This document shows positions 17,757-53,832 of a stretch of 64,000 nucleotides of DNA, one piece after another. The DNA comes from Fonticella tunisiensis. Its GTDB lineage: Bacteria; Bacillota; Clostridia; Clostridiales; Caloramatoraceae. The position numbers were made by a program, and so were the translations under genes. Position 1 is the stretch's first letter, and each line of letters starts with the position of its first letter. Where the stretch lies: contig NZ_SOAZ01000016.1 of NCBI RefSeq assembly GCF_004364155.1, forward strand, positions 1 to 64,000. The letters run 5' to 3'. The notes under the pieces were generated by a model. That model searched no databases. It worked only from the letters and a program-made list of their open reading frames with translations, and was not told where the DNA came from.

Positions 17757-20700
17757 ATTGTGCTGTGTAACAGGTAGGCTAAATCAGCAATTCTCTTATG
17801 CGAAGACGTAGACGACCCGAAGTTTCAATTCCTTATAGGTAGGCTAAATACTTTCTTTCAAGGTTTGACGAATATGGAGAATACAATGAAGTTTCAATTC
17901 CTTATAGGTAGGCTAAATACTAAAAGGAGTGGTAAAAATGCCAACTTGTTTAAATTGTTTCAATTCCTAATAGGTAGGCTAAATACTTCGACTGCACCGG
18001 CATAGACTGGAGCAGTCTTATAGTTTCAATTCCTTATAGGTAGGCTAAATACGTGTATATTTGATTGATATACACTCACATATCAAATAGTTTCAATTCC
18101 TAATAGGTAGGCTAAATACTTTGCTGCTTAATACTTCACCATGTCACTTCTACTCTTGTTTCAATTCCTAATAGGTAGGCTAAATACCTGCACCCCCTGC
18201 TTTTATTGTTTCTTTTTTCTTAGTTTCAATTCCTAATAGGTAGGCTAAATACCATCAACTTACCAAGCATATTGAGTACACATATCTTAGGTTTCAATTC
18301 CTAATAGGTAGGCTAAATACTCAACAAGATTGCTAAGGATTTGCTGGATATTGGAGTTTCAATTCCTAATAGGTAGGCTAAATACGAAAAATTGGACAGA
18401 TTGAAAACTGCTCAAGAGCAAGGTTTCAATTCCTAATAGGTAGGCTAAATACTATAGCAGACGAGATAGGCGCTTTTAGAGATTATCAGTTTCAATTCCT
18501 AATAGGTAGGCTAAATACGAAGTGGCAGATTTGGTATTGCGGGAAGTGAAAAAGTTTCAATTCCTAATAGGTAGGCTAAATACCCTTACAGCAGTATCAA
18601 TCATGTACAAAGAAAATGGGTTTCAATTCCTAATAGGTAGGCTAAATACCATATAAAGGTTTTTGCGTTTTTTCGTGGTATGAAGTTTCAATTCCTAATA
18701 GGTAGGCTAAATACTACCAGGCTGGCAAGGGAATTTGCAGAACTTCCAGCGTTTCAATTCCTAATAGGTAGGCTAAATACTTAAAGTCAGTTGAAATGAA
18801 ACAAGAGCTTGAGGCATGTTTCAATTCCTAATAGGTAGGCTAAATACCGGGGAGCTTAAAAAAGATGCTATAGATAGGATTGTGTTTCAATTCCTAATAG
18901 GTAGGCTAAATACTAATCGGCGATTTAAAAGAAGCTATTGTAATGTTTGAGTTTCAATTCCTAATAGGTAGGCTAAATACACTTTTTTCCCTCCCCCTAC
19001 CCTCTCAGCTAAATCACTGTTTCAATTCCTAATAGGTAGGCTAAATACATATAGCAGACTTTTTGAAAGATATTGATGGGAAAAAGTTTCAATTCCTAAT
19101 AGGTAGGCTAAATACAGTCCAGATTCTCCTTCCACACATGGTGGATGAGCAAAGTTTCAATTCCTAATAGGTAGGCTAAATACCCTATGGCGGAGATGTA
19201 TTTGCAGCCGCAGGAATATAGTTTCAATTCCTAATAGGTAGGCTAAATACCTTCCCTTTCGAAGTCTTCTATCCTGTATTCATCCTGTTTCAATTCCTAA
19301 TAGGTAGGCTAAATACCTTGTCCATTAACCTTACAAGTATTACCCAGTCTCCGTTTCAATTCCTAATAGGTAGGCTAAATACCCAAAGAAGACTCTACCA
19401 GAAGGCACTTTGAAGAGTAGTTTCAATTCCTAATAGGTAGGCTAAATACCTACGAATGTGTTAGTTACTAATATTACAAAGGCATAGTTTCAATTCCTAA
19501 TAGGTAGGCTAAATACTTGAATATTCAATTGAACAGCTTGTAGAGCTATTTAAGTTTCAATTCCTAATAGGTAGGCTAAATACCCTCTATTTTCTCTAAT
19601 AAAGAGGTGAAAACATGAAAGGTTTCAATTCCTAATAGGTAGGCTAAATACGCCTGCATAAGGCTTGGAATAGATGGAAAGCAATTTAGTTTCAATTCCT
19701 AATAGGTAGGCTAAATACCATATTACTCATTTTGATTATCCCCCTCTTTCACTAAGTTTCAATTCCTAATAGGTAGGCTAAATACCTATTTCCTCGAACT
19801 TCATGTTTAGTATCTCTCCAGTTTCAATTCCTAATAGGTAGGCTAAATACATAGAATGGTGCTATATGCCTTAGCGCATATAGCTTTTGTTTCAATTCCT
19901 AATAGGTAGGCTAAATACAGGTGGAGCCGACAAGATTTCTCCACCGAAACATCTGTTTCAATTCCTAATAGGTAGGCTAAATACACCTCTCCCTCCTTTT
20001 CAAATGGTAGATGAGTAAAGTTTCAATTCCTAATAGGTAGGCTAAATACTTCTTTGAGTCTACGCAAAAAATGGGAATTTTATACATAGTTTCAATTCCT
20101 AATAGGTAGGCTAAATACAAGAAAATTAGAAAAGAGAAAAGCAAGGAGATGGATAGTTTCAATTCCTAATAGGTAGGCTAAATACCAACTGCCACTAAGA
20201 TTGGTACTAAAGCGATATCAGTTTCAATTCCTAATAGGTAGGCTAAATACACGATTTCCCAAATTGAAAGTGGAAAGCGCCAAACGTGTTTCAATTCCTA
20301 ATAGGTAGGCTAAATACCTAAGGATAAGAAGGCGTAAGCCTTTGAACATTGCAGTTTCAATTCCTAATAGGTAGGCTAAATACTCGCTTTCATTAGATGG
20401 TTCCAGTTCTTCAAGTTTTTTGTTTCAATTCCTAATAGGTAGGCTAAATACACACAAGAGAGAAAAATTTGCTATGACCGAACAGGTTAGTTTCAATTCC
20501 TAATAGGTAGGCTAAATACTCATAGAGGTCATAGAATATATGCCTTGCATTAACTTGTTTCAATTCCTAATAGGTAGGCTAAATACGAGCGAACATTTGC
20601 TTCTCAAAGATATGTTGAGAAATTGTTTCAATTCCTAATAGGTAGGCTAAATACTGAGTCCATCTTCTGTGATAAATAACTTTGCCATTGTCGTTTCAAT

Positions 20701-23520
20701 TCCTAATAGGTAGGCTAAATACTATTTATTTCTTTTTCTTGCCATTCAAGGCTTTTTTCGTTTCAATTCCTAATAGGTAGGCTAAATACATGACTGCGCA
20801 GGCATAGCCTGGAGCAGTTTAATAAAGTTTCAATTCCTAATAGGTAGGCTAAATACTGAATATTCAATTGAACAGCTTGTAGAGCTATTTAAGTTTCAAT
20901 TCCTAATAGGTAGGCTAAATACTTCGCCTCCTTCCTCCTTATCTTTGGTTGTTTTGATGTTTCAATTCCTAATAGGTAGGCTAAATACTACAGTTCAGCC
21001 AGGGGACACTCTCTGGAGTATAGGTTTCAATTCCTAATAGGTAGGCTAAATACAATAAAACATGCTGTTGAAGAATTAGAAGATAAATGTTTCAATTCCT
21101 AATAGGTAGGCTAAATACCTTCATCAGCATGGAAGAAATGTAGAGATGGATATATGTTTCAATTCCTAATAGGTAGGCTAAATACAGCGGAGCAGAAATG
21201 CTCTTCCGCTCAACCTGAAAAAGTTTCAATTCCTAATAGGTAGGCTAAATACAAGAATCATTGATGGTGTTTATACATATGAGTATGTGAGTTTCAATTC
21301 CTAATAGGTAGGCTAAATACAAGTGTGAAACCACAATTTTTATAAGGTGAGGTTTGTTTCAATTCCTAATAGGTAGGCTAAATACATATGAATTCCTCTG
21401 CACATCAAGTTTTTTCAAGTTGTTTCAATTCCTAATAGGTAGGCTAAATACTTAAAAATATTATTTTTGATGTCTTTAACATCTTTTTGTTTCAATTCCT
21501 AATAGGTAGGCTAAATACATGCCATGTTTTATGGCTGCCTGCTGGGCAGCCCTCATGTTTCAATTCCTAATAGGTAGGCTAAATACATTGCAGAATCGAA
21601 TCTTTAAATTTTGCAGAAACATGTTTCAATTCCTAATAGGTAGGCTAAATACTACTTGCCAATAAAATTTTTTCCCCGGTGTTCCTGGTTTCAATTCCTA
21701 ATAGGTAGGCTAAATACCGATGTGTCGCATTGTAAGAGTAAAAAAGTTATATGGTTTCAATTCCTAATAGGTAGGCTAAATACTTTATAGCTTATTTCAC
21801 ACCTCTTACATAAATTCAAACGTTTCAATTCCTAATAGGTAGGCTAAATACTAAAAGCTGAATATAGACAATTTTTAAAGGAACATAAGTTTCAATTCCT
21901 AATAGGTAGGCTAAATACAACATGAGATTAAAATTATTATCAAAATGTGAAATTGGTTTCAATTCCTAATAGGTAGGCTAAATACATTAGCAAAGAAATA
22001 TTAAATTTTGAAAGGAGATATGGTTTCAATTCCTAATAGGTAGGCTAAATACTTAGTTCAGCCCTTAAAGCTTCTTCAAAGGTCATAGTTTCAATTCCTA
22101 ATAGGTAGGCTAAATACAGAAATTCATTGAACATAAGTAGCCAGCATGTAGTGTTTCAATTCCTAATAGGTAGGCTAAATACTAACAGACCGCTAACGCT
22201 CAACCTGTGAATAAATTAGTTTCAATTCCTAATAGGTAGGCTAAATACTTGATAGCAAAGAAGATGCTTTAAAAAAGATTGAAGAGTTTCAATTCCTAAT
22301 AGGTAGGCTAAATACTTATTAGATAAAAATTGGAAGTCGTTTTTTAAATCCAGTTTCAATTCCTAATAGGTAGGCTAAATACCTGCTGCGTCGTTTGATA
22401 GTAACATTAACTTATTTATGTTTCAATTCCTAATAGGTAGGCTAAATACGACGAGTGGGGCTTTGGTGCAGAATTAATAGAAAAAAGTTTCAATTCCTAA
22501 TAGGTAGGCTAAATACACAGAAGAAAGAACTATAACAGCAGAAAAAGTAGAGTTTCAATTCCTAATAGGTAGGCTAAATACTTGAAACGGACAACTGGTA
22601 TAACCCAGAACCAAGAAGGTTTCAATTCCTAATAGGTAGGCTAAATACGAGAAAAGGCACTGATTACAACATGCCAACTCAAAAATGTTTCAATTCCTAA
22701 TAGGTAGGCTAAATACTATAACCGGTCAGCTTTTTCTCAGCCATTTTCTGTCGTTTCAATTCCTAATAGGTAGGCTAAATACTAGAAGAATTCAAAAATT
22801 ATATTTATGGACTTATAGGGTTTCAATTCCTAATAGGTAGGCTAAATACTCGCCTTTAAGCTGTTCTATAGCCTCTTTAGAACTCTCGTTTCAATTCCTA
22901 ATAGGTAGGCTAAATACCTTGCTCTACTTTATAAAATGTACTTTTACTAACTCCGTTTCAATTCCTAATAGGTAGGCTAAATACGGCTTGAAGGGTATTA
23001 AGTGCGGGAGATGTAACGCACGTTTCAATTCCTTATAGGTAGGCTAAATACTCTTCTTCCCAGTTTTCATCTTTTGCAACAACTAAAGTGTTTCAATTCC
23101 TAATAGGTAGGCTAAATACAGGATGAAACAATAAAAGAATCCTTGCAGCAATATAGTTTCAATTCCTAATAGGTAGGCTAAATACTAACTTTATTCCTAG
23201 CAGATTCAGGTCGTTGTGTTCTAGTTTCAATTCCTAATAGGTAGGCTAAATACATAGCTAACCATGCTGGAATAAGCTTTATATAACCAGGTTTCAATTC
23301 CTAATAGGTAGGCTAAATACTAAATGGGACGAACTGACAGGGGAATACAACCCTGTGTTTCAATTCCTAATAGGTAGGCTAAATACCAATTTCACCGTAT
23401 ACAACAGCTGAACCATCAAACTGTTTCAATTCCTAATAGGTAGGCTAAATACCCTTTCGAAGTCTTTTCTTGCTGTATTCTTGTATGAGTGTTTCAATTC
23501 CTAATAGGTAGGCTAAATAC
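17757..23520 (-). CRISPR. Type I-B CRISPR array, 86 full repeats plus one degenerate
   Basis: Repeats are 30 bp (as written on the plus strand they start GTTTCAATTCC and end GGCTAAATAC), the first full one at 17822-17851 and the last at 23491-23520. I counted 86, with spacers of about 34-39 bp. The crRNA strand is minus, because there the repeat ends ATTGAAAC, the usual I-B 5' handle. The leader end is therefore on the right, next to cas3. At the far end a degenerate repeat (around 17757-17786, keeping AGGTAGGCTAAAT) closes the array. Four repeats (17822, 17891, 18023 and 23022) carry T instead of A at position 13. One spacer occurs twice (19517-19553 and 20857-20892). Confidence 0.97.
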
Positions 23521-26759: not shown

Positions 26760-27644
26760 CTACTTAACTTCAACTAAATTAAAATCAGCCAGTACGTTCT
26801 TTAAGGCTACTACTCTACCTTCATACACAAGCTCCAATGCTTCATCCGCAAAATAGAATACCTTATTTATTTTATCCTTATTATTTATTAACCTTTCAAC
26901 AAGCTTTGTAATATCTAAACTTACCTCTTCAATGTCCCTTACGTTTTCAACCTTTTCAGAAAGTACAATATAATCTCTAAAATCCCCTAGTATTGTTTGG
27001 CTATCATTATATTCAACCCTTAAATATAGCCTTGGATATTGTCCTACCTTACTTCTTGTTGCTTGATTTACTATAGCATATTTCATGGCTTTATCAAGAA
27101 GTTCTAAATCCTCTGGCTTTAATCTCGTTTTTTCTGCCCTTTTACCAGACACAACGCCAAAGAAAGAGATAAGTGAATATTTAACCCTATAATCCTTTCC
27201 TATTGCACCCTGTGAATTTCCTGTCTCGCTTGAAAAATGAGATGTAATTGAAGACTCCAAAAGTTCAACCTTATTTAATGAGTATCCCCAATTAAATTGA
27301 ACAGGTCCTATAAATGTCTTGTTGTCACTTTTAACCGGCATAGTTGCTCCAAACATTCTAACGTCAATTAAATTTTCAAGTATCCAATCTTCAGTAAATT
27401 CCTTAAAACCCTTTGTTCTTCCTTCTGCATTTACAACCTTGCCATCCACCATTCTTACAAAAATATCATGTCCTAAGTCATATAAATAATCTCTTATGTA
27501 TCTTTTAAGTCTTAAATCTGAAACAAGATTTACTTCCCTTTCGTAATCCATTCTAGGTCTATTTTCCTCATCAGGATCTCCATTTGGATTACAAAGCTTT
27601 GCATCATAAAGATATAAAATTTCGTTATTGTTCATCTTTTTCAT
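26760..27644 (-). CDS. cas7b: Cas7 (Csh2), Cascade backbone
   Basis: Polymerises along the crRNA spacer to form the Cascade backbone. 294 residues. The N-terminus LYDAKLCNPNGDPDEENRPRMD and the following LKRYIRDYL are typical of Csh2-type Cas7, as is the internal FGATMPV. The start overlaps the end of cas8b by 20 bases, showing translational coupling of two subunits needed in different amounts. Confidence 0.93.
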   Translation of the reverse strand: MKKMNNNEILYLYDAKLCNPNGDPDEENRPRMDYEREVNLVSDLRLKRYIRDYLYDLGHDIFVRMVDGKVVNAEGRTKGFKEFTEDWILENLIDVRMFGATMPVKSDNKTFIGPVQFNWGYSLNKVELLESSITSHFSSETGNSQGAIGKDYRVKYSLISFFGVVSGKRAEKTRLKPEDLELLDKAMKYAIVNQATRSKVGQYPRLYLRVEYNDSQTILGDFRDYIVLSEKVENVRDIEEVSLDITKLVERLINNKDKINKVFYFADEALELVYEGRVVALKNVLADFNLVEVK

Positions 27645-29559
27645 CCTCCTTCAAAAATGGTTTTACACTGGCGTAGGAATATCCTGAAAGTATATAATAT
27701 AAGTTTTCATTCTTATTTAGACTCCAATTTGCTAAGTTTTTATCAAGAAGCCGTTTAAATTCAAAATATACTGCTTCATTATACACCCTAAGTGGCTTGT
27801 CATTTACCTTTTCTTGATTTAACTTATTAAATACATCTGATGACAGCCTTAGTATTTTTTGCTTATCTATTCCATTAAAGTTTAATTTATTAAGTATAGG
27901 CTTTTTGTCATTTAATCTTTTTCTTTGGGCATTTCCAACTTCACCTATTAAGTAGCCTAGCAGGAAAAGTGCTGCCCTCTCTTCATCATATCCCATTGCT
28001 TCAATATATTCCTTCAAATCATCCCTCACAGATAATTTAGATACATCCATCGCTTCTCCCTCCTTTAAACAGCCGAGCTTTTCAAGCATTTTTAAGAAAA
28101 TTAATGTCCTATTTATATAACCTTCTATTGTTTTGTACCTTGAAATATTGTACTCACCGTAATTATCGTTTTCCTGCTTTCTGTTTATAATTGCAGCAGC
28201 CCTACAAAAACCATTTATTAGATTTCTTCTATCTAGTGATCTTAGAGTTAAAATTGCATCATATATGTTTAAAATATTTCTGTATTCTGTTGCCTCTCCC
28301 TTACTTTCTCTAATTGGAGTCATATTATAAATTGTATATAAATTAAAATCGTGTTTACCTAAAAAAGGCCCAGTTTCTTTTTTAGCTAAATCTATAGATT
28401 TACACAGTGTCCTGAATATTCCTGGGTTTACATCATTTATAAGTCTTTGTATTTTTGTTGATTTTTGAACATTTTTATAGAACATGAAATTTAATAGAAA
28501 ATATGCATTTGTATCGTTAAAGCTCAGCGACATATCAAGTTCATTTCTAAACTCATCTATGTCAGATAAATTCTTTAATGTGTCAAAGGAGTAATTTATT
28601 TTATCCTTTATAAAATCTAAATCCCTAATATCTATGTTCTCGCCATATATAAAATGGGGAATTATATATACCTTAAATGTTGCAAGCTTTGTTGAAAAGT
28701 TATTTATAACATATGTTTCACCTGCAAGTAGGCTGTTTAGGCAGTTCTCACAAAGCTGCATGTTTTTCTTGTAGTTGCTCTTATTAAACCCACTTGCAAA
28801 AATAGCCAGATTTGTTGTATAGTATTTTAACTTTGTTTTGGTTAAATCATCTGAGACATTTTCACTGTTTCCACATATATGGCAAATACTTTTTTCACTT
28901 TTCCTTGCAGCCTTCTTCTTAGGTTTTTTTGACTCTAATACAGCCCTTCTGTATTCCTCATAATCTGTAAGTGGTACACCATCTATGCATATTACAAACA
29001 AACCAAAGTCATTTAGTTTAACACCATATTGGGATTTTAAAAAGGCCTCAAGCTCTTTTGCCAATACATCAGAGAATTTACTTCCCTTTTTACCCGATGC
29101 TATGTATTCATTATACCTTTCCTTTACATTAAAGTTTTGAATACCTATTTTACTTAAATCCAGTGCATACCTATATCTTTTTAATGTTTCATCTTCCAAA
29201 TCAACAAAATAGTTTTCTAAAATATATTTTATTTTTGAGTTCAATGGGTCTCCTAAATCAATATCAGTTAAACTGTTTATGGTCTGATTTAAAAAATATG
29301 TTATGTTGCTGCTTGAAGCATACCACTGTGGTGAATTTGCCCCATCTGCAGGTCCAACATAGCAATATTTTGACGAAGTACCAGTGTTCATTTCTTCATC
29401 CAAGTTAAATTCCAGCTTAGTCTCTGAAGTTGAAAAGTTAATCTTTAGAACATGTCTCCTTTTTCCTTTAACCTCTGGTTCCAGCTCCTTTATTATGTTT
29501 TCAAGTAGGCCCCTCTCTTTTAGAGCCGATTGCCCTATTTGAATTAATCCTTCAATCAA
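27625..29559 (-). CDS. cas8b: Cas8b (Csh1), large Cascade subunit
   Basis: The large subunit that recognises the PAM in type I-B. 644 residues, with two zinc-binding cysteine pairs, CHIC (about 226-229) and CENC (about 270-273), the usual zinc finger of the Csh1/TM1802 group. The N-terminal YCYVGPADGANSPQWY is also family-like. It has weak overall similarity to other Cas8 proteins, so assignment rests on the zinc fingers, length and position between cas6 and cas7. A small internal Cas11-like product might be translated from its C-terminal part, as in other I-B systems, but I saw no decisive internal start. Confidence 0.88.
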   Translation of the reverse strand: MIEGLIQIGQSALKERGLLENIIKELEPEVKGKRRHVLKINFSTSETKLEFNLDEEMNTGTSSKYCYVGPADGANSPQWYASSSNITYFLNQTINSLTDIDLGDPLNSKIKYILENYFVDLEDETLKRYRYALDLSKIGIQNFNVKERYNEYIASGKKGSKFSDVLAKELEAFLKSQYGVKLNDFGLFVICIDGVPLTDYEEYRRAVLESKKPKKKAARKSEKSICHICGNSENVSDDLTKTKLKYYTTNLAIFASGFNKSNYKKNMQLCENCLNSLLAGETYVINNFSTKLATFKVYIIPHFIYGENIDIRDLDFIKDKINYSFDTLKNLSDIDEFRNELDMSLSFNDTNAYFLLNFMFYKNVQKSTKIQRLINDVNPGIFRTLCKSIDLAKKETGPFLGKHDFNLYTIYNMTPIRESKGEATEYRNILNIYDAILTLRSLDRRNLINGFCRAAAIINRKQENDNYGEYNISRYKTIEGYINRTLIFLKMLEKLGCLKEGEAMDVSKLSVRDDLKEYIEAMGYDEERAALFLLGYLIGEVGNAQRKRLNDKKPILNKLNFNGIDKQKILRLSSDVFNKLNQEKVNDKPLRVYNEAVYFEFKRLLDKNLANWSLNKNENLYYILSGYSYASVKPFLKEDEKDEQ

Positions 29560-29570
29560 TTTTTCACCTC

Positions 29571-30296
29571 CTACAAAACTTCAATGCATCCAAAACCCTG
29601 GGAATTTTTAGAGCCAATGCCTGCTCCATAAGCAACCTTTAAAAGTTCCTTTGAACCTTCAATAACAAACTCCCCATTCCACCCCTTTATTACAGTATTT
29701 TTATATAACACAATGCTCTCCTTTAAAGTATTCTTTACAGGCTTTATGCTAAATTTTATATCATCTGGATCTTTGCCATAAAAGGACTTATATTTATATA
29801 TTAAGTTTCTTCTTACAAGCTCCTCAAAATCCTCCTCCATAGGATTATAATAGTAAGTTTTCTTTTTTCCATCCCTTTCAAATGTGCTATAAACTGTAAT
29901 TGGTGATTTTGATATAAATTTTACATTATCTAATTCTGGAAAAATATAACATATCCTTTCAATCTCTATTTCTTTCCCAAATATATTTATACTTCCCTTC
30001 TCTATATAGTTTTCAACTACATATTTTAAAAACTCATCATCTAATGATGAAATTAAAAGCTTTGCTCCTTCAAAATATTTTATTCTCTTATTTTGTATAT
30101 CTAACTTATACTTTCCCTCAAGCCTTGAAAATGTAAATAGCTTGTATCTTCTTTTGTTGTATTCGTAACCTTTGTCGTGTAAAAACCTTGAATAATTTTC
30201 ATCATTAATCCACTTATATATTACTGCCTGTAGTATGTGGTTATAGTGAATGGGAAGATCAAGTTCATCAAATTTCAAGTTTAACTCTACCCTCAT
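29571..30296 (-). CDS. cas6: Cas6 crRNA endoribonuclease
   Basis: Cuts each repeat of the precursor to release crRNAs with an 8-base 5' handle. 241 residues with the RAMP fold and the C-terminal glycine-rich loop GAGIGSKNSQGFGCIEVL. An N-terminal conserved histidine (IHYNHILQA, about residue 17-20) may be catalytic. It lies between cas2 and cas8b, with 11 bases before cas8b. It would also recognise the lone repeat upstream of cas4 if that is transcribed. Confidence 0.92.
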   Translation of the reverse strand: MRVELNLKFDELDLPIHYNHILQAVIYKWINDENYSRFLHDKGYEYNKRRYKLFTFSRLEGKYKLDIQNKRIKYFEGAKLLISSLDDEFLKYVVENYIEKGSINIFGKEIEIERICYIFPELDNVKFISKSPITVYSTFERDGKKKTYYYNPMEEDFEELVRRNLIYKYKSFYGKDPDDIKFSIKPVKNTLKESIVLYKNTVIKGWNGEFVIEGSKELLKVAYGAGIGSKNSQGFGCIEVL

Positions 30297-30402
30297 TATT
30301 GCATCTCCTTTGTTAAACTTTATTAATTAAATTTCTACATTTTTTTAAAATTTCCTTCCTCTATTAATAAAATTTACATCTTCCCATCCTATTTTTATTG
30401 CA

Positions 30403-30666
30403 TTAAATTATTATGTTTTGTGGATTTTTATCTAATCCCATAACTTCACGATTTGAATATTTTAGGCTGTTGAACTGATATATTATTACAGAATCCGCAT
30501 CTTTTTTAATTATCCTGCTAAGCTCCATCTTTAGTTTTTTTAAATTTGCCTCTGTTATCTCTCCTTCAAATACTGAGTTTTGCACCCATGTTAGATATTC
30601 TCTACACTTTTTTAAAATCTTTGCTACCCTTTTCTCCTCAACATCATAAACTAGAATAACAAACAT
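30403..30666 (-). CDS. cas2: Cas2, spacer acquisition
   Basis: Partner of Cas1 in the integrase complex. 87 residues from the ATG at 30666 (MFVILVYDVEEKRVAKIL), chosen because GGTGGTGATACT lies just before it. A longer frame running into cas1 is not needed. The N-terminal beta strand ends in the conserved Asp of LVYD. Length is normal. The start is four bases after the cas1 stop codon, so the two are probably translated together. Confidence 0.93.
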   Translation of the reverse strand: MFVILVYDVEEKRVAKILKKCREYLTWVQNSVFEGEITEANLKKLKMELSRIIKKDADSVIIYQFNSLKYSNREVMGLDKNPQNIII

Positions 30667-30670
30667 AGTA

Positions 30671-31663
30671 TCACCACCTGGCAACAAATGGAGTGTATTC
30701 TTCATCTTGGGTTATGTGTTTTTGTATTTTATATAATTCCATCCTTATAATTTTTCTGTAGCTTACTATTTGATTAAGTTTTGGATGGTTTATTGTAACA
30801 TCCAGTTTGTTATTAAACTCCTGCACAAATATTTTTCTTCCCTTTTCATCTAGTATTATGCCGTTTAATTGTTCATCAAAATCTTCTTCTGTTATGTACG
30901 TTCTGTTTATAAGGGAAAAAATGAGCCTGTCAACTATAGCAGGTTTAAATATTTCTGCAACATCTAGATTTAGTGTAAATTTTCTATTGTTGGTAGAGTG
31001 GAGATATCCAATACTTGGGTTTAATTGGGTATGGTATATCTCTGATAAAACTACAGAATAAAGAAGTGAATTGCCAAAACTGATTAGTGCATTTAATCTA
31101 TTAAGCGGTGGGCGTTTGCTTCTTTTTTCAAATACAAACCCGGGCTTGTTTATTATATTGTCAAAACATGAGTAATAGATTTCTCTAATATTGCCCTCAA
31201 CTGCCATAACCTCTTCTACAGTATTTGACGAAGCTAAATCTTCTCTTTTTTCTACAATTGCGTTGATCCTATCTTCAATTTCAATTCCCCTGGATTTATA
31301 GTACCTAAGAACTATAAGCATATTTGAAAATGCTCCATCTATTATCTTTTTTGCAATGTTAAGTCTTTTTTCATAATCCGTATAATACTCAGCCTGTTTT
31401 AAAAGAACATACCCTGAATTTAAGTGCTCCCTTGGATAGAAGCTTCCTACATAATATCCATAATGATTAAAAAAGTGGAGGACTATCTCCTTTTGTGCTG
31501 CAAACTCTAAAAACCTTTTATTAACATCAACATCACCAAAAATCCATATATTGTTTATTTCTTCAACGGGTAGATATTTTTTTCCTTCACTGGTTTCAAA
31601 ATATAGTGTATTGTCCTTTCTTCTTAACTCTCCATTGGAGAAAATATATATATCTTTATTCAT
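30671..31663 (-). CDS. cas1: Cas1 integrase
   Basis: Metal-dependent integrase that inserts new spacers at the leader end. 330 residues, the usual I-B length. Landmarks are the N-terminal beta domain (IYIFSNGELRRKDNTLYF), the helical core with the conserved glutamate region EEVMAVEGNIREIYY, the histidine in GYLHSTNNRKFTLNLDVAEIFKP and the aspartate/glutamate motif that follows. It follows cas4 by 11 bases, and Cas4 and Cas1 are known to work together in PAM selection. Confidence 0.95.
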   Translation of the reverse strand: MNKDIYIFSNGELRRKDNTLYFETSEGKKYLPVEEINNIWIFGDVDVNKRFLEFAAQKEIVLHFFNHYGYYVGSFYPREHLNSGYVLLKQAEYYTDYEKRLNIAKKIIDGAFSNMLIVLRYYKSRGIEIEDRINAIVEKREDLASSNTVEEVMAVEGNIREIYYSCFDNIINKPGFVFEKRSKRPPLNRLNALISFGNSLLYSVVLSEIYHTQLNPSIGYLHSTNNRKFTLNLDVAEIFKPAIVDRLIFSLINRTYITEEDFDEQLNGIILDEKGRKIFVQEFNNKLDVTINHPKLNQIVSYRKIIRMELYKIQKHITQDEEYTPFVARW

Positions 31664-31674
31664 TTAACCTCCTC

Positions 31675-32166
31675 CTAAGCATAGCAATATTCTCTATATG
31701 CACAGTTTTTACAATATATACACTCCTCTATCTTTGGAGGTACTTTTGAATTTGTTATATCTATTATTTCCGCTTCAATTTTCTTAAGCTCCTTAATATT
31801 TTCATCTGTAAGTTTTATTTCAACCCTTCTTCTCTCCTCTGGATATTGCAATACTCCACTTGCTTCAATTCCTGCTTCCTTTAATACTTTTAAATAGTAC
31901 ATGAGTTGCCATTTAGATGCCTCCAAGAATTTAGAGGATTTTTTTGTTTCTCCTATTACAAGCTTATTTCCATCTTGATAAACAACATCAAATACTACAT
32001 TACCAAATCTTATTTCCTTATCATTTCTACGATAGTAGTTTTCATGTATAAATCTTCCTATTTCAATATTGTCATCTTCTTGGTCAGGTACAATTCCGTG
32101 GGACATAAGGTAGACTTCTCTTTTGCATATTTTGTAGTACCAGACAAGTGTGCCATTTACATCCAA
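31675..32166 (-). CDS. cas4: Cas4 nuclease, spacer acquisition
   Basis: RecB-like exonuclease with an iron-sulfur cluster that trims prespacers and fixes PAM and orientation. 163 residues starting MDVNGTLVWYYKICKREVYL, with one cluster cysteine near the N-terminus (about 14) and three at the C-terminus (CIYCKNCAYREYC). The nuclease core is visible as VFDVVYQDGNKLVIGETKKS. The start is a TTG preceded by AAAGGTGG. It is the first gene of the cas operon, and the repeat-spacer-repeat unit lies directly before its ribosome site. Confidence 0.9.
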   Translation of the reverse strand: MDVNGTLVWYYKICKREVYLMSHGIVPDQEDDNIEIGRFIHENYYRRNDKEIRFGNVVFDVVYQDGNKLVIGETKKSSKFLEASKWQLMYYLKVLKEAGIEASGVLQYPEERRRVEIKLTDENIKELKKIEAEIIDITNSKVPPKIEECIYCKNCAYREYCYA

Positions 32167-32421: not shown

Positions 32422-32513
32422 TGGCGGAGAGAGAGGGATTCGAACCCTCGGTACGGGTATCCCCGTACAACGGTTTTCGAGACCGTCACCTTAAACCACT
32501 CGGACATCTCTCC
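32422..32513 (-). tRNA. tRNA-Ser(CGA)
   Basis: 92-base cloverleaf on the minus strand, starting GGAGAGATGTCCGAG and ending with an encoded CCA. It has the long variable arm of serine tRNAs, and the anticodon loop CTCGAAA reads CGA. The T-arm GGTTCGAATCC is canonical. Confidence 0.95.
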
Positions 32514-32788
32514 ATATATCGACTTACTATAAAATTATACTAAATTTATAGGTACAAATCAATAAACATTATTTTCTACGCCCATTAATATTTGGATATT
32601 TATAATTTTAATCCAACATATAAATTATAAAAAGATACAAGCTGTACAATGAAAGGATTTAATGAAACAATATAGGCAGTATAGCCAGAAAATTGAAATA
32701 AAACTATTAACAAAAACCAAAATGTATGTTATATAAAGTTGTAGATGACAAATAATAATTTTAATAAAATCATTAAGGAGGTTTTTTT

Positions 32789-33028
32789 ATGGCAAAAACG
32801 ATAAGCATTGAGTACTGCACTTCCTGAGGATATGATTTAAGAGCAGTTGCTCTTGTTGAAAATTTGCTCGGTGAGCATAAAAACAATATAGCGTCATTAA
32901 CCCTCATACCTTCCTCAGGCGGCGTCTTTGAAATAAAGGTTGGGGATGAGCTCGTCTTCTCGAAAAAGGAGCTTGGGAGATTCCCCGAAGAGGGAGAAGC
33001 CGAAAAATTAATTAGAGAAAAACTTTAA
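32789..33028 (+). CDS. SelW-like (Rdx family) selenoprotein with CxxU
   Basis: 79 codons from an ATG preceded by AAGGAGG. Codon 13 is an in-frame TGA (32825-32827) in the context C-T-S-U (ISIEYCTSUGYDLRAVALVEN), the redox site of SelW/Rdx thioredoxin-like proteins where CxxC or CxxU is expected. The rest is intact: SLTLIPSSGGVFEIKVGDELVFSKK, then GRFPEEGEAEKLIREKL. A hairpin follows the TGA. The alternative is a Cys-to-stop mutation, but the conserved tail, ribosome site and terminator argue for selenocysteine. Its role would be thiol redox chemistry. Confidence 0.82.
32825..32870 (+). promoter_or_regulatory. Candidate bacterial SECIS hairpin
   Basis: Directly after the TGA codon, AAGAGC and GCTCTT pair around AGTT with about 11 bases between the codon and the stem, inside the coding sequence, which is where bacterial SECIS elements lie. 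The match to known loop rules is only partial, but these are loosely conserved. Confidence 0.5.
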
Positions 33029-33033
33029 CGATA

Positions 33034-33066
33034 AAGGCTGTGCTTTAGATTGGCACAGCCTTTTTT
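33034..33066 (+). terminator. Terminator of the selenoprotein gene
   Basis: AAGGCTGTGC pairs with GCACAGCCTT across nine bases and is followed by TTTTATT. It begins six bases after the stop codon, supporting the assigned end of the gene. Confidence 0.85.
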
Positions 33067-33073
33067 ATTAAAA

Positions 33074-33958
33074 CTATACCGCCTTCCTGTTTTCATAGAA
33101 CGGTTCAATATGAACTATTATCTGGATGTTATCATTAATTTCCTCCTGTATCTTTTTTTCTATACTATGAATTAAATTGTGGGATTCCTCAACACTCATG
33201 TCAGGCTCTGTCAAAATATGCATATCAATATAAATGTCATCCTCACTTCCTCTGTTTCTAATCTTATGAACTCCCTTCACCTTTTTAAATGTCATTACGA
33301 TTTCCCTTATCCTTTCGTTGTCAATAACAGCTCTGTCAACTAGTATATCGCTGGTAGATTTGAATATTTCATAGGAGGCATGAAATATGAAGATAGAAAC
33401 TACAAGTGAGGCTATGGGGTCAATAACAGGCGGCAGTCCCAGCCTGACACAAACTAAAGTAACAATTACTCCGATGGACACATATATATCGCTTCTCGTG
33501 TGCATTGAGTCCGACATAAGGATATAGCTGTTTAGCTTCTTCCCCTGGCTATATTCATATATGCAGACAATAACATTTATGGCAAGGGTTGCAAGTAAAC
33601 TGATAATACCTTCAATGGTAACATGTGGAGTAACGGGGTTTATAAACCTTATTATTGCGTCAGCGATTATTTTTCCCCCTATGAAAAACAGCATAGTTGA
33701 AATAAAAAGCCCTGCAATGGTTTCAAACTTTCCATGACCGTATTGGTGTTCCTTGTCTACGGGTTTAGAGGCAAAATATATTCCTATTAAGCCAACTACA
33801 TTAGATGATCCATCTGCCAATGAATGGAATCCATCAGCTGTCATGCTTGTACTTTTAATTATGCTTCCTATAACAATTTTAAACAGCGCCACTCCCAAAT
33901 TAGCAAACAGTATTATCCATAATACCTTCATAACTTTTTTGAAGTTTCTGTTGCCCAT
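33074..33958 (-). CDS. Cation diffusion facilitator (CDF) metal exporter
   Basis: Proton-coupled efflux of divalent metal across the membrane, 294 residues with six membrane segments followed by a cytoplasmic metal-sensing domain. The transport site is visible as HSLAD (His45, Asp49) and SMHTRSD (His153, Asp157), a His-Asp/His-Asp pattern that favours zinc or cadmium. The intracellular HQYGHGKFET motif is also typical. The C-terminal domain has HKIRNRGSEDDIYIDMHI. It stands alone between the selenoprotein terminator and tadA. Confidence 0.88.
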   Translation of the reverse strand: MGNRNFKKVMKVLWIILFANLGVALFKIVIGSIIKSTSMTADGFHSLADGSSNVVGLIGIYFASKPVDKEHQYGHGKFETIAGLFISTMLFFIGGKIIADAIIRFINPVTPHVTIEGIISLLATLAINVIVCIYEYSQGKKLNSYILMSDSMHTRSDIYVSIGVIVTLVCVRLGLPPVIDPIASLVVSIFIFHASYEIFKSTSDILVDRAVIDNERIREIVMTFKKVKGVHKIRNRGSEDDIYIDMHILTEPDMSVEESHNLIHSIEKKIQEEINDNIQIIVHIEPFYENRKAV

Positions 33959-53458: not shown

Positions 53459-53832
53459 ACATATCCCCCTTAAACCCTATTTATTTTTAATTATAAGATA
53501 AAAAACATCATTATTAAACACATTTTTCTATGAAGGTATATGTTATAGCCGAATATGTATAAAAAATTATGTATACTATTTTCCTTATAAAAAATCAATT
53601 AATGTATCATATTTAAATTTATTTCTTCTATAGGTTGCTTATTGTATTTTTAAAAAAATTATATGCTATACTTTTATATAAAATTTTTAGTATTAAAAAT
53701 TATTAGAATATTATAAAATATAATTATTAAATATTTTTAATATATTTATATCTATGATTTTTGCATCCTATTTGGTCTTAACTTTGTGTAAACTTTTTGT
53801 TGAAAGTCCATTGCATATATTTTTTATCGCGG
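53459..53832. other. Very AT-rich gap
   Basis: About 370 bases, mostly A and T, with no gene or clear signal. Near its right edge (53809-53830) is ATATATTTTTTATCGCGGCTAG, a short copy of the inner repeat of the MITE-like element at 49861. Confidence 0.5.

Follow-up and report, generated by a model that had tools for sequence, protein, structure and literature searches.

The question raised by this locus is whether a reading frame interrupted by a single TGA is a working gene in which the UGA is decoded as selenocysteine (Sec). Within the window, the whole stretch of 64,000 nt from Fonticella tunisiensis that was analysed, a SelW-like (Rdx) frame of 80 codons (final TAA included) begins with an ATG at 32789 on the + strand and is interrupted only at codon 13, where the TGA falls in the motif Y-C-T-S-U-G-Y, a CxxU pair in the form CTSU. 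The frame then continues through 66 sense codons to the TAA at 33026-33028. The table-11 ORF list, compiled with a 60-aa minimum, contained no + strand ORF at 32789-33028, and reading the raw sequence can recover a recoded gene where a plain ORF list shows none. The features of the locus are as follows.

32775..32781, + strand: ribosome-binding site AAGGAGG, 7 nt 5' of the ATG (by eye)
32789..33028, + strand: SelW-like (Rdx) selenoprotein gene, read-through product of 79 residues with Sec at position 13, TAA stop included (frame, profile matches, structure model)
32825..32827, + strand: UGA codon for selenocysteine, the second member of the CxxU pair (frame; TGA at the homologous site in relatives)
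32838..32855, + strand: SECIS hairpin whose apical loop, AGUU, occupies 32845-32848 at a spacing of 17 nt from the UGA (folding, conserved position, covariation)
33033..33063, + strand: intrinsic terminator, a stem-loop of 12 pairs with a loop of 7 and a T-rich tail (folding; shared use putative)

The sequence-only reading had described a frame with a ribosome site, a single TGA at codon 13 in CTSU and a clean run to the stop, all of which was confirmed. The terminator that it placed after the stop is also real, with an energy z-score of -6.4 and none of 200 shuffles equally stable, and it may be common to the convergent gene ending at 33074.

Protein family and selenocysteine machinery

Profile searches were run on the read-through product with U written as C. 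The Rdx profile PF10262 was covered over its whole length at 82 bits (cut-off 22.6), and TIGR02174 (CXXU_selWTH) scored 67.8 bits (cut-off 34.2). The narrower NCBI equivalog NF041051 (SelTWH_Campy) reached 85.2 bits, just under its curated cut-off of 88, and the product was therefore not assigned to it. With phmmer, SelW-related solved structures were matched, the best being 3dex (3.2e-12) and 2fa8 (9.8e-12). An AlphaFold2 model built from 21 sequences had a mean pLDDT of 90.6, and its top solved match in Foldseek was the SelW-related protein 2fa8, with a TM-score of 0.93. As modelled, the product has the thioredoxin-like SelW fold, which together with the two profile matches upholds the Rdx/SelW identity first proposed from the letters. 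The gene is the only Rdx gene in the F. tunisiensis genome.

The same genome carries selA (633.8 bits), selB (401.7 bits) and selD (396.5 bits), each over its cut-off, arranged on contig C8 in the run selD-selA-selB. The tRNA-Sec (selC) lies on contig C21 and scores 68.2 bits (gathering score 47), and ARAGORN likewise calls this tRNA as tRNA-SeC with anticodon TCA. The genome thus decodes Sec: all four genes implied by the sequence-only reading are present, and their absence, which had been set beforehand as the finding that would overturn it, is excluded. The selD gene itself contains one in-frame TGA (L002 7162-7164, contig C8) in the context S-G-U-A-A-K, and selD of this genome is probably also a selenoprotein.

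Conservation of the TGA codon and distribution of the gene

One reading of the interrupted frame is that a CxxC Rdx gene has been broken, a Cys codon having become TGA through nonsense mutation or sequencing error. Cys forms of the family do exist, as the codon-13 TGA aligns with the Cys of homologues, solved relatives have Cys at the site and one relative (L042) has TGC there. Against a broken gene, Rdx genes were found in 5 of the 225 genomes of the order, each with one internal TGA, and reading of the homologous codon gave TGA in all four of the others; selA was over its cut-off in all five of these genomes, compared to 107 of the 225 genomes in the order. Among 20 relatives from a wider genome collection, the check for Cys or Sec suggested by the sequence-only reading gave TGA at the site in nearly all (19) and Cys in one (L042), in a search that was seeded by short query stretches, is biased to near relatives and provides no census of Cys forms. 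This near-absence of Cys forms agrees with the account in PMC1794560, where Cys homologues of SelW-like proteins are described as scarce or absent in organisms that contain Sec. Moreover, selection persists beyond the TGA: pN/pS after the codon was 0.24-0.41 in all ten pairs of five sequences (the window, L024, L028, L029 and L030), and with pS at 0.70-0.98, i.e. synonymous sites near saturation, these ratios are rough while their direction is clear. The values point to purifying selection acting downstream of the TGA. Given these results and the sel genes present in the genome, a broken CxxC gene is very improbable.

The selenoprotein gene is patchily distributed. No Rdx gene was found in the 16 other genomes of the window's family (1 of 17, Caloramatoraceae), and the genome thereby gains a selenoprotein that its close relatives are without. 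Of the relatives with a name, Tissierellia assemblies come closest, at 74%, 68% and (Gudongella) 63% identity, while L024, from another family of the same order, shows 73% identity. Loss in sister lineages and transfer would both explain this pattern. In one member of the family, selA was present in several broken pieces with internal stops (G015:C1:2218644-2219977), which may be an assembly error in a genome that is 74% complete. In four of the collection relatives (L041, L043, L044 and L045) a second TGA closes the SelW-like reading frame, and past it the same frame is open into a long downstream ORF that we take to resemble MutS2; the likeliest arrangement is a pair of neighbouring genes sharing a frame, with the second TGA a true stop.

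The surroundings of the gene suggest no operon partner among the genes flanking 32789-33028. Upstream, on the opposite strand, lies a tRNA-Ser(CGA) at 32422-32513, followed by a CRISPR-Cas locus, and downstream a cation-efflux protein gene is convergent; the SelW-like gene looks like a stand-alone unit. A conserved neighbourhood was considered and rejected, as the flanks of the Tissierellia relatives (L028, L029 and L030), judged from their translations, differ from each other and from those in the window. L030 has a tRNA-Ser nearby, as in the window, with a different anticodon, which we take as chance. The CRISPR array comprises 86 exact copies of the 30-nt repeat GTTTCAATTCCTWATAGGTAGGCTAAATAC, all on the + strand (window 17822-23520 and 26760-32166), and beside it, on the - strand, are cas7, a TM1802-type gene, cas6, cas2, cas1 and cas4. 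Elsewhere in the window, a tandem repeat with a period of 22 (3.7 copies, 93% matches) occupies 2330-2412, and a short A+T-rich stretch at 53680-53749 contains overlapping tandem repeats with periods of 10, 16 and 22.

The hairpin after the TGA codon

The small hairpin that the sequence-only reading had noticed after the TGA is present at 32838-32855, where 32839-32844 pair with 32849-32854 and an outer U-G pair is added, enclosing the AGUU loop. Its loop has 4 nt and its stem 7 pairs, the second loop position is G, the spacing is 17 and the energy is -8.5 to -11.5 kcal/mol. The bacterial SECIS model given in PMC13188914 comprises a loop of 3-9 nt, 4-16 pairs, a G in the first two loop positions, a spacing of 16-37 nt and an MFE of -7.5 or lower, and the hairpin agrees with every item of the model as given there. 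Its energy alone is unremarkable. When three stretches starting at or just before the TGA were compared with 200 dinucleotide shuffles, 8, 11 and 23 shuffles were as stable, and for a longer stretch 99 of 200 folded equally well. Folding energy was abandoned as an argument for a SECIS, as 143 of 300 synonymous variants equalled the hairpin of the window. A search of Rfam over 32600-33200, with E up to 10, returned nothing over its gathering score (the top listed was mir-4703, at 21.9 bits against 88), and we take this sub-threshold list, mostly on the terminator, as chance.

Because the energy is unremarkable, the case for the hairpin rests on its register and on covariation. In an alignment of eight genes, which includes L024 and L033 and leaves out L026, the TGA and the G-U of the loop are invariant in all eight. 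Covariation was counted in six of nine genes with the loop at the same distance from the TGA, L024, L026 and L033 being omitted for their 5-nt loop form (L026 also allows a 3-nt loop). All six have a 4-nt loop. Pairing holds in 34 of their 36 cells (94.4%), and three of the six pairs change on both sides; the covariation score was equalled in 5 of 500 shuffles, and slid controls paired at 27.8 to 55.6%. In L025 and L027 the closing pair is kept despite changed encoded residues, which amounts to about one event since the two are close relatives, and the 45-nt fold of both is only -5.1 kcal/mol, less stable than the published model's limit of -7.5.

Comparison across the family, using a loose criterion (at least 5 pairs, at least 2 of them G-C, and G in the loop), placed the hairpins at two distances from the TGA. 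The loop started 19-21 from the first TGA base in nine of nine genes (the window, L024-L030 and L033; early register) and 23-26 from it in all 15 other Sec genes (late register), with four of the 24 genes (L029, L036, L046 and L047) satisfying both. Measured to the start of the loop, which holds G-U in each case, the distance from the UGA is 17 nt for nine genes, namely all eight from clostridia and Tissierellia and a single proteobacterial one (L033), and 21-22 nt for the other 15 Sec genes examined. Of 1560 other codon positions in the same genes, 154 have a loose hairpin of this kind in the early register and 166 in the late one; among synonymous variants the share is about 3.5 to 29%. The split was drawn after the folds had been viewed and is thus a hypothesis, not a test. 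Both registers lie within the 16-37 nt range published in PMC13188914. The register labels cluster on a poorly resolved protein tree (3 changes compared to a shuffled mean of 8.5), in which 4 of 22 inner branches are starred and 13 open, and a register may have arisen once or more than once. The hairpin following the selD TGA is shorter than that of the SelW-like gene, and no 5-pair hairpin was found there in either the early or the late register.

It is conceivable, if rather unlikely, that the SECIS occupies two discrete registers in the SelW-like family, Sec having been kept while the signal shifted by about 1.5 codons. If true, a SECIS could be re-formed in place without a Cys intermediate, perhaps matched to a lineage-specific SelB.

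The hairpin also bears on decoding of the UGA without selenium, e.g. by near-cognate read-through or a suppressor tRNA. Nothing specific was found in favour of such decoding, and set against it are the complete Sec machinery, a SECIS-like hairpin with covariation and the position of the TGA, exactly where the Rdx family otherwise has Cys, which makes it exceedingly improbable.

Decoding of the UGA and comparison with known SelW-like proteins

Sec insertion is always in competition with termination, and some truncated product is therefore likely, but a real stop at the TGA, with a small independent protein or a degenerating remnant beyond it, is barely credible, as one conserved domain spans both sides of the codon (including Cys at position 10 and position 13), no separate ribosome-binding site was seen by eye after the TGA, and selection continues beyond it. 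We are highly confident that 32789-33028 is instead a functional SelW-like selenoprotein gene, in which selenium insertion and redox activity are to be expected from the family. The identity and family of the gene, the machinery of the genome, the selection on the frame and the conserved TGA and hairpin were established by computation. A ribosome would start at 32789 and reach the UGA at codon 13, where the downstream SECIS hairpin would hold SelB with Sec-tRNA(Sec), and selenocysteine would be inserted in place of termination. The 79-residue product would then adopt the thioredoxin-like fold of Rdx/SelW proteins, its Cys-x-x-Sec redox pair following the first strand, and would probably act in thiol-disulfide redox chemistry, as its family suggests.

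The underlying biology is already established. A survey of the Sargasso Sea described SelW-like selenoproteins whose genes have bacterial SECIS elements (PMC1088965), and others were reported from sequenced bacteria, among them the clostridia Alkaliphilus metalliredigens and Desulfotomaculum reducens (PMC1794560). In the GOS marine survey they formed the most abundant selenoprotein family, with 427 sequences (PMC2398784); by that account bacterial SelW-like proteins are among the commonest known selenoprotein families, and the rarity implied by the sequence-only reading was overstated.

The Cys-form Rdx/SelW-related proteins 2fa8, 2obk, 2oka, 3dex and 2p0g share the fold of the window product, with TM-scores of about 0.85-0.93 and sequence similarity of 3e-12 to 7e-7. 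They differ in the redox pair: 3dex and 2fa8 have CxxC in the alignments, compared to CxxU here, and 2obk, 2oka and 2p0g presumably have CxxC in its place as well. The fold is also that of mouse SelW (2npb), a distant homologue (TM-score 0.68, sequence E-value 0.047); the latter is a eukaryotic gene, and PMC1088965 states in general terms that the eukaryotic SECIS sits in the 3' untranslated region.

The bacterial SelW-like selenoproteins described in PMC1088965, PMC1794560, PMC2398784 and a 2026 review (PMC13188914) belong to the same PF10262 family and carry the same CxxU pair, with the SECIS right after the UGA and in Sec-decoding anaerobes that include clostridia, as here. Compared to these known systems there is no difference of substance; the gene is a new one, present in one of the 17 genomes of its family, and it is an ordinary addition to the SelW-like CxxU selenoproteins that have been in print since 2005-2008.
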